Assembly: GCF_004348515.1 (NCBI RefSeq)
Contig: NZ_SMKH01000042.1
Span: forward strand, 1-36,720
DNA from: Actinomadura sp. KC345
Lineage (GTDB): Bacteria; Actinomycetota; Actinomycetes; Streptosporangiales; Streptosporangiaceae
DNA length: 36,720 nucleotides
Reading direction: 5' to 3'
The number at the start of each line of letters is the position of its first letter. Position 1 is the stretch's first letter. A program made the translations under genes and the position numbers. The notes beneath the pieces were generated by a model that worked only from the letters and a program-made list of their open reading frames with translations, had not been told where the DNA came from and made no database searches. Below, piece by piece: positions 29,282-36,720 of the stretch.

Positions 29282-30817
29282 ATGATGAATGCTCGCGGGC
29301 CCGCCGTGGACCGGTTGCTTCCCCTGGCCGGGCTGCCCGCCCTCGACGTGCCCGCGGCCCAGGTCGAGCGGGCCCGGGAGCTGGCCGCCCGGCACGGCAT
29401 GCTCCGCGAGGAGAGCGTGGACCTCGCCGATCCCGTGGTCGCGCGGGTGGAGCGGTTCGCCGCCGAGCGGGACCGTCCCGCCGTCACCGATGGGGCGCGC
29501 ACGCTCTCCTACGCGGAGCTGGCGGGGGAGGCGCGCCGGCTGGCCGCGCTGCTGGTGGACGAGGGCGTCGAGCCCGGAACGGTGGTCGGCGTCGGCGGGC
29601 CCCGCAGCGCCGGCGTGATCGCGGCGTTCCTCGCCATCGAGCTGGTCGGCGCCCTGTACGTGCCCGCCGACGAGGCGTGGCCGGCGGGGCGCGTCCGCGA
29701 CGTCCTCGCCCAGGCGGGCGCGTCCGTGCTGGTCATGGCGGACGATGCGGGCGCGCCGGCCGAGGGCGCCGCGGAGACGGGCTGCCGGGTGGTGCGGGCG
29801 GCCGCGGCGGAGGGCCTCCGGCCGTGGGCCGGTGAACCCCGCTCGCACACTCTCGGTCTGCCCCGGTACGTCCTGTTCACCTCGGGGTCGACGGGCCGCC
29901 CCAAGGGCGCGGTCGTCGAGCACCAGGGCATGGTCAACCACCTCTGGGCCAAGATCATCGACATGGGGCTGACCGGCGCGGACGTCGTCGCGTTCACGGC
30001 CCCGCTCGGCTTCGACATCTCGATCTGGCAGATGCTGTGCCCGCTGCTGCTCGGCGGCCGGGTGGAGGTCGTCGGCGACGAGGTCGCGCACGATCCGGTC
30101 GCGTTCGCGCAGGCCGTGGACGAGCGGGGCATCACGGTCGTCGAACTCGTCCCGACCATGGTCAGGCACCTCCTCGACGACCTGGCCCCCGGGCTCCGTC
30201 GTTCCGGGGGGACGCCCCCCGGGCAAAGGCCCCTGCAAGGCCTCCGCTGGATGATCGCCACCGGCGAGGAACTGCCCGCGGAGCTGTCGCGGCGCTGGCT
30301 GGACGCGATGCCGCACGCCCGCCTCCTCAACGCCTACGGCCCGACCGAGTGCTCCGACGACGTCACCCACCACACCGTCACGGCCGGCGACCTGGACCTT
30401 CTCCGCCTGCCGATCGGCACGCCGATCGTCAACGCGCGCCTGCACGTGCTGCGCGAGGAGGACGACGGCACCTGGTCCGCCTGCGACATCGGCGAGACCG
30501 GTGAGCTGTTCGTCGGCGGCGTGGTCGTCGGGCGCGGCTACCTGGGCGACGACGAGCGGACCCGCGAGGCCTTCTACCGCGACCCGTTCGGCGACTCCCC
30601 GACGGGCCGCCTCTACCGGACGGGCGACGCGGTGCGGCTGCTGCCGCCGGGCGCGGGCGGCGAGGACCGGCCCACCCTCCAGTACCTGGGACGCGTCGAC
30701 CGCCAGGTCAAGATCGCCGGGGTGCGGATGGAGCTGGGCGAGATCGAGGCGGTGCTGCAGCGGCACCCGTCGGTGGGGGCCGCCGCGGTGGTCGTGCACG
30801 AGTACCCGGCCGGGTGA
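29282..30817 (+). CDS. Stand-alone NRPS adenylation core lacking motifs A9-A10
   Basis: 511 residues (ATG at 29282; ATG at 29285 is equally good, GGAG 7 bases before it). Adenylation motifs occur in order: A1 LSYAEL (75-80), A3 LFTSGSTGRPKG (198-209), A4 around Asp245 (FDISIWQ), A5 NAYGPTE (350-356), A7 YRTGD (445-449), A8 GRVDRQVKIAGVR (from 470). It then ends at HEYPAG, about 38 residues past the A8 hinge Asp473. The remaining 60 or so residues of a normal C-terminal subdomain, including A9 and the A10 Asn-Gly-Lys lysine, are absent, and no carrier domain follows. No A9/A10 can be found downstream in any frame before 31268, so this is not a simple frameshift. The missing part is found inside the NRPS at about 35756-35935. 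Reading GrsA positions by eye gives Asp-Ile-Trp-Glu-Ile-Thr-Ala-Asp-Asp; extra acidic residues fit an amine-bearing substrate such as Dap. Confidence 0.9.
   Translation: MMNARGPAVDRLLPLAGLPALDVPAAQVERARELAARHGMLREESVDLADPVVARVERFAAERDRPAVTDGARTLSYAELAGEARRLAALLVDEGVEPGTVVGVGGPRSAGVIAAFLAIELVGALYVPADEAWPAGRVRDVLAQAGASVLVMADDAGAPAEGAAETGCRVVRAAAAEGLRPWAGEPRSHTLGLPRYVLFTSGSTGRPKGAVVEHQGMVNHLWAKIIDMGLTGADVVAFTAPLGFDISIWQMLCPLLLGGRVEVVGDEVAHDPVAFAQAVDERGITVVELVPTMVRHLLDDLAPGLRRSGGTPPGQRPLQGLRWMIATGEELPAELSRRWLDAMPHARLLNAYGPTECSDDVTHHTVTAGDLDLLRLPIGTPIVNARLHVLREEDDGTWSACDIGETGELFVGGVVVGRGYLGDDERTREAFYRDPFGDSPTGRLYRTGDAVRLLPPGAGGEDRPTLQYLGRVDRQVKIAGVRMELGEIEAVLQRHPSVGAAAVVVHEYPAG
30204..30222 (+). 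repeat. Perfect hairpin inside the adenylation gene
   Basis: CCGGGGGG and CCCCCCGG form a perfect 8-base stem around ACG. In protein it lies in an insertion (RRSGGTPPGQRPLQ) before LRWMIATGEEL, at a place where adenylation domains normally have a short loop. It looks like a small palindromic element captured in frame; it could also be a tolerated sequencing artefact of a G/C run. Confidence 0.5.

Positions 30818-36720: not shown

Follow-up and report, generated by a model that had tools for sequence, protein, structure and literature searches.

The adenylation (A) domains of NRPSs hold the lysine for adenylation in motif A10 and the one for thiolation in motif A8, and their small subdomain rotates by about 140 degrees between the two steps, according to the available sections of PMC11253843. 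There are some described systems in which such a domain does not come in one piece. In the corallorazine pair Crz1/Crz2, published in 2024, an A domain is split between A8 and A9 over two open reading frames and, in the accessible part of that report, was active in vitro only when both proteins were mixed; there, the core closes an NRPS (C1-A1-T1-C2-A2-nMT) at its C-terminus and the next protein begins with the tail, so that a single gene border runs through a single domain, at a point marked by a methyltransferase (PMC11342130). As for kutzneride, the loading carried out by stand-alone KtzN is said to depend critically on the Asub-only A* of KtzH (quoted in PMC10587159). The A* of glidonin GdnB module 13 likewise has the layout C-[Asub only]-T, although it belongs to a termination module and the excerpted text describes no stand-alone core partner for it (PMC10587159). 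Other modules depend on the A domain of a different module: capreomycin CmnI, described without an A domain in the available account, is loaded with L-Dap by CmnA-A1 of another NRPS module (PMC12400406), and the fungal SidD/Nps6 have a module whose A domain lacks around 290 N-terminal residues and whose loading is attributed to A1 of the same NRPS, with no orphan core described in the portion at hand (PMC10192304). The locus presented here, from Actinomadura sp., encodes a free A-domain core and, inside the neighbouring NRPS, an isolated A9-A10 tail. With a probability of roughly 0.8, both likely form one working A domain, whose core is predicted to recognise L-2,3-diaminopropionate (L-Dap).

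The window, as the whole analysed stretch of 36,720 bases is called here, is identical with contig C366, one of 600 in a draft genome of 8.27 Mb, and the NRPS therefore lacks its 3' part. The features of the locus are collected in Table 1. The stand-alone protein is matched by Pfam AMP-binding at residues 60-421, up to the end of the profile (PF00501, 238 bits), and by TIGR01733 at residues 76-503 (409/409, 345 bits against a cut-off of 317), and contains, besides A3, the motifs A5 (NAYGPTE), A7 (YRTGD) and A8 (GRVDRQVK). After the latter there are 34 further residues, ending in ...AAAVVVHEYPAG*, so that the stretch from the start of A8 to the C-terminus measures 42 residues, and both A9 and A10, with the catalytic lysine that an NRPS adenylation domain has in the same chain, are absent. 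In accordance with this, the Pfam profile search reported no AMP-binding_C for the 511 residues, and the profile matches and the motifs agree with the sequence-only reading that the core stops after A8. The missing part is not hidden behind a frameshift after 30817 either: no A9/A10 exists past the stop in any plus frame, and a profile of the missing part, run from -60 to +340 bases around the core end in the window and 55 relatives, gave nothing convincing (best E 3.4). The frames of both genes, on the plus strand, are backed by codon-position G+C, with a clean coding signal. When the core was folded alone with AF2, its last 40 residues had a pLDDT of 37-52 and most of the rest 85-98, although the low values at the C-terminus could also reflect the modelling. 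Databases annotate the protein merely as an amino acid adenylation domain-containing protein, a name that hides that a second gene product would be needed for its function.

Table 1. Features of the split adenylation locus in the window
Feature	Positions	Strand	Basis or remark
sbnB homologue (2,3-diaminopropionate synthesis)	27026..28045	-	TIGR03944, 421 bits vs cut-off 327; start approximate
sbnA homologue (2,3-diaminopropionate synthesis), divergent from core	28081..29067	-	TIGR03945, 382.6 bits vs cut-off 350; start approximate
Stand-alone adenylation core A1-A8, 511 aa	29282..30817	+	profile matches, motifs, 55 relatives
Core A3 / P-loop, TSGSTGRPKG	29879..29908	+	motif
Core A8 hinge and first part of small subdomain, GRVDRQVKIAGVRMELGEIEAVLQRHPSVGAAAVVVHEYPAG	30689..30814	+	
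NRPS, C1-A1-PCP1-C2-[A tail]-PCP2-C3	31268..36720	+	open at contig end
A1, intact cis adenylation domain (AMP-binding and complete AMP-binding_C), internal control	32648..34057	+	
C2 condensation domain, HHIAGDG	34403..35680	+	profile, motif
Short C2-to-tail linker	35681..35749	+	median omega 0.90 over 42 loci
Isolated A tail, (L)DKRLVAYVV ... A9 LPESMVP ... A10 PNGKVD, without A1-A8	35750..35938	+	
A10 lysine codon	35906..35908	+	
PCP2, GGNS (serine codon 36074-36076)	35993..36184	+	
C3 condensation domain, cut by contig end	36242..36720	+	start approximate

The NRPS gene starts 450 bases after the core gene. Between its C2 and PCP2, which keep HHxxxDG and GGNS, respectively, the isolated segment with the A10 lysine had been recognised by eye, and this is confirmed by an AMP-binding_C match comprising only profile positions 27 to 76 (at 35759-35908), with no A1-A8-like sequence between C2 and the tail. 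In the structure search, the rows for this stretch were filled by the C domain and the tail was hardly covered. Searching the two fragments with profiles gave AMP-binding on the core only and a partial AMP-binding_C on the tail. Neither protein holds a whole second A domain, and the A9/A10 that the core is without are found in the NRPS. Placed end to end, the halves do read as an ordinary A domain, as had been proposed, since the distance from A8 to the A10 lysine amounts to 42+51=93 residues, within the 88-107 of eight intact domains. The split does lie between A8 and A9; it falls, though, inside the small subdomain and not at the subdomain border, the core carrying the hinge and the first part of Asub and the tail the remainder. 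On another contig of the same genome, L128 (G000:C224), which comprises A3-PCP3-E and a further NRPS behind it, is probably the continuation of the window NRPS; judged from L050, about 1 kb is missing in between. Farther upstream, at 10195-18010 on the minus strand, there is a gene row that apparently has nothing to do with the NRPS and includes a DnaK/Hsp70-like protein (16427-18010, recognised by eye from the N-terminal sequence).

How widespread both truncations are was addressed by comparison. A protein search with the core returned 2,020 relatives, the 120 listed ones all having PF00501 without a precomputed AMP-binding_C, and the nearest named proteins among the matches listed belong to Spirillospora and Actinomadura. 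A scan of one genome per species gave 218 confirmed loci, the best 80 of which were taken for domain mapping with profiles built from the window's own NRPS. Within these best 80 of 218 loci, 55 have an orphan core, and the A domains of the remaining 25 are intact apart from that of L079, which a frameshift interrupts and which was kept out of the orphan counts. All 54 of the 55 orphan cores that can be read to the stop end at the same border (best 80 of 218 loci); the other, L053, runs into a contig end and was counted among the 55 orphans and left out of the C-terminus count. From the start of A8 to the C-terminus, the 54 relatives and the window (n=55) have 39-73 residues, with a median of 42, and the A10 motif occurs in 0/55 of these checked cores.

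The sequence-only reading had asked for other genomes combining an orphan core with a C-[A tail]-PCP module, and both were found together for 52/55 orphan cores (best 80 of 218 loci): in 41/55, the module is in the adjacent downstream NRPS, and in 11/55 it is elsewhere in the genome. The latter comprise nine with the module elsewhere in the cluster or genome (L037-L040, L042, L043 and L045-L047, from Streptomyces, Nonomuraea, A. litoris and a second copy in OS1-43) and L010 and L053 (genome G308), with the tail module on another contig. For the other 3/55 cores (L008, L019 and L049) the partner is unseen because the contig stops within the NRPS, and the genomes of L008 and L019 yielded no contiguous C-tail-PCP match. 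The border of the orphan tails is also constant among loci, as they start at (R/K)LVAYVV or nearly so. In L052 (A. madurae), the NRPS reading frame is apparently broken inside the A domain that follows the tail module. Two further orphan cores, more distantly related, share the ending ...CAVV(V/L) (L123, G230:C2; L124, G279:C59), and the NRPS adjoining L124 has a module with a core remnant plus a tail.

The co-occurrence was also visible in a census of 297 genomes of the order, in which the core profile (threshold E<=1e-160) matched in 58 and the C-tail-PCP profile contiguously in 53, with 8 and 5 candidates scored per genome. All 53 module-positive genomes fall within the 58 core-positive ones, and no contiguous C-tail-PCP match is listed in the 239 order-level genomes without a core. 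The five core-only genomes comprise G269 and G280 (those of L040 and L046), which have divergent orphan tails instead of a contiguous match, G252, whose core-profile match is an intact domain, and G157 and G162 (those of L008 and L019). These positives are not independent events, because 50/58 core-positive genomes belong to one genus. A class-level census of 296 genomes gave 2 with the contiguous module (E<=1e-58) and 3 with a core-profile match, one of the latter in a 1,989-aa frame.

For the 42 loci including the window, sequence constraint was compared by mean pairwise identity and by median omega (Nei-Gojobori, which is crude at such G+C). The orphan tail has an identity of 79% and an omega of 0.36, versus 66% and 0.56 in the A1 cis tail (42 loci) and 73% and 0.43 in the A3 cis tail (25 loci), while the linker between C2 and the tail evolves almost unconstrained, with 41% and 0.90 (42 loci). 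The core, with an identity of 0.81 and an omega of 0.29, and the PCP of the tail module, with 0.76 and 0.45, were compared over the same 42 loci. A9 and the glycine-lysine of A10 are kept in 61/61 orphan tails, and HHxxxDG and the PCP serine motif in 42/42 tail modules. These values indicate that the tail is under purifying selection and better conserved than the intact tails of the same NRPSs. A vestigial tail, also considered, was rejected because of this conservation above that of the cis tails. Regarding the core, the part from A8 to the end (first 37 residues) has 93% mean identity and the other parts 80% (42 loci); the corresponding values for A8-to-end versus the rest of the domain are 82 vs 69 in cis A1 (40 loci) and 79 vs 82 in cis A3 (25 loci). 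Specific co-evolution of core and tail was looked for through their distance correlation, which is 0.81 and hardly above the 0.76 between core and A3 tail; since the latter is nearly as high, the correlation attests shared descent and does not show co-adaptation. Altogether, the truncation conserved in both partners, their co-occurrence and the invariant A10 lysine partly support the interpretation as two pieces of one working domain.

As for the substrate, the pocket of the core reads D-I-W-E-I-T-A-D-D in an alignment to 9n1u and PvdL, with the nine positions mapped by eye, next to D-V-W-E-M-N-A-D-D in the Dap-bound sulfazecin A3 and D-I-W-E-L-T-A-D-D in PvdL-A3, a Dab domain. Pattern-derived codes were obtained for 48/57 cores (36 DIWEITADD, 11 DIWELTADD and 1 DIWEVTADD), nine remaining unparsed. 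The sbnA homologue adjoins 53/55 orphan cores and the sbnB homologue 51/55 (best 80 of 218 loci); L048 and L049 begin inside the core at a contig edge, and at L037 and L040 sbnB was not found. The pocket together with the adjoining sbnA/sbnB leads to L-Dap as the predicted substrate, whereas the pocket alone would fit Dab almost as well as Dap. Because Dap occurs in GE23077, this compound was weighed as the product; its gene cluster is not described in the review literature, as far as the accessible texts go.

The best reading of these data is an obligate two-piece A domain, which would reassemble at the C2-[tail]-PCP2 module and whose catalytic lysines are on different proteins, because the A8 lysine is on the core and the A10 lysine on the NRPS. 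SbnA and SbnB would supply L-Dap, and the core would bind it together with ATP and dock its A8 hinge and half-subdomain onto the tail between C2 and PCP2, completing the small subdomain. The A10 lysine of the tail would then enable adenylation to Dap-AMP, after which the rebuilt subdomain would swing about the hinge, leaving the A8 lysine of the core to serve the transfer to PCP2. Neither half would be active alone, and the tail would double as an address that guides the core to the right carrier domain, allowing one core to attend several modules. For a domain split in this way to be functional, Crz1/Crz2 provides a precedent in vitro.

Other roles of the tail are conceivable. It is unlikely that it is a mere docking or packing element between C2 and PCP2, with a core that adenylates without A9-A10 and a stump used for recognition: Asub-less A-domain cores have indeed been crystallised, some with ligand (PDB core constructs), and the kutzneride A* is quoted as non-functional itself yet critical for KtzN-mediated transfer (in the text available of PMC10587159), but the A9 and the A10 lysine kept in every orphan tail go beyond the needs of a docking patch, and Crz1.2, which is without A9/A10, showed no turnover until Crz2 was added, in the accessible part of PMC11342130. 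More improbable still is loading of PCP2 by a different A domain in the line, the tail being a relic and the core acting elsewhere or with a borrowed subdomain. Such cross-loading is published for modules with no A domain or a truncated one, as the partial texts on CmnA-A1/CmnI (PMC12400406) and SidD A1/T2 (PMC10192304) describe; a relic, however, would hardly be better conserved than the tails of intact cis domains, nor would the core be expected beside the tail-bearing NRPS and sbnA at the frequencies given above (41/55 and 53/55 among the best 80 of 218 loci). An artefact of sequencing, frameshift or assembly that broke one ordinary C-A-PCP module, to which the draft state of the genome (600 contigs) might have pointed, is refuted by the relatives and keeps practically no probability, as both truncations recur at 41 further loci from distinct species or strains and in single-contig census genomes (e.g., G063, G189 and G213), besides the clean coding signal without A9/A10 after the stop.

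Returning to the two-piece domain, some genomes have more tails than cores. In A. litoris, a contig of 55.9 kb (G004:C18) holds three tail modules (L105-L107) but just one orphan core. The single-contig genome of Actinocorallia G234 has two tail-bearing NRPSs about 0.86 Mb apart (L118-L119 and L127), and one stand-alone core was found in it among 150 of 207 candidates scored; G155 (L120-L121) has two such NRPSs on different contigs and one core found among 150 of 153 candidates scored. The second NRPS, far from the core, has the same layout in G234 and G155: C-A-PCP-C-[tail]-PCP-C-A-PCP-E. From these counts we infer that one core may be shared by several tail modules or by two NRPSs, although the core-less tail-bearing NRPS of Actinocorallia could also mean an idle tail. 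A broader proposal, which we put forward tentatively and at somewhat less than even odds, is that of a plug and its sockets: a mobile Dap core, inactive alone, would complete chimeric A domains at several A9-A10 sockets, even on two assembly lines, with halves that differ in ancestry and catalytic lysines on different proteins.

The origin of the halves was approached with trees. The orphan tails form one clade in 60/61 cases (support 0.935) and in 20/21 in a more careful tree (99/91); those outside the clade are one of the three A. litoris tails, the G279 tail after the core remnant and one of the two from OS1-43. The orphan cores are also in one clade, with 56/58 of the rows so labelled (support 0.90), the two outside it being L079, whose frame is broken, and an ORF lying at the margin of a retrieved stretch. 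The C domain preceding the tail, for its part, varies between loci. Intact stand-alone relatives of the core also adjoin sbnA/sbnB (e.g., L065, L069, L071, L075, L077 and L078). The 61 orphan tails have a mean identity of 55% (best 65%) to 144 cis NRPS tails, of 50% (best 53%, rank 94 of 167) to 12 tails from the intact relatives nearest to the core, and of 39% to 11 tails from other intact loci with a stand-alone A domain. The two halves may accordingly look back on different A domains; two ancestors are left as an inclination only, because the AU test did not reject a common clade of the orphan tails with those 12 (p 0.174, 63 columns). In Nonomuraea and A. litoris, a degenerate A6-A7 stump, with A8 gone, stands directly before the tail, an apparent intermediate in the erosion of a cis A domain. 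Such A6-A7 remnants were seen in L102, L088, L091 and L107. In the history that we incline to, a complete stand-alone Dap enzyme beside sbnA/sbnB would have lost its own tail, and the module's own A domain would have been eroded down to its tail, losing the beginning.

If core and tail reassemble, this would be a natural, exchangeable, non-covalent A domain, divided at A8/A9, a position known to accept insertions in A domains. As an address, the tail could send one substrate to chosen carrier domains, and, with the A8 lysine on one protein and the A10 lysine on the other, the roles of the half-subdomains in adenylation and transfer can be tested with natural parts.

How does this locus compare with the described systems? 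The sequence-only reading had proposed a new way of supplying a trans-acting A domain; that the principle is wholly new is not supported, as the A8/A9 split was already published for Crz1/Crz2, according to the available text of PMC11342130. As in Crz1/Crz2, on that description, the break is between A8 and A9, and A9/A10 are on the protein that bears the carrier domain. Unlike there, the core is a protein by itself, with 42 residues from the start of A8 to its C-terminus, and the tail follows C2 in the interior of a continuous NRPS; the locus has no core that terminates an NRPS and carries an inserted methyltransferase, and no tail at an N-terminus. With kutzneride KtzN/KtzH-A*, as described, the locus shares in outline a C-[Asub only]-PCP module accompanied by an A protein that stands alone, which is for Glu in KtzN and predicted for Dap in Actinomadura; if KtzN is without A9/A10, it would be, by analogy, the same kind of system. 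Dap would be delivered in trans as to CmnI in the account available (PMC12400406), but the present case is not of the trans-iterative CmnI/CmnA-A1 kind, since the recipient module has retained A9-A10 as a conserved tail and the free core next to it is incomplete. With SidD/Nps6, as partially described in PMC10192304, it has in common the module with an N-terminally truncated A domain. No published description of this family of cores and C-[tail]-PCP modules was found in the open-licence PMC literature, to the extent of its accessible text. The arrangement is therefore one with only few known precedents, and not a wholly new principle; what is new, as judged from the genomes compared, is the mobile core with its in-module socket, conserved across genera, the one core that faces up to three sockets or two separate NRPSs, and the possible descent of the halves from different A domains. 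Seen by analogy, the present system joins features of Crz1/Crz2, kutzneride/glidonin and CmnI in a conserved, mobile-core form.
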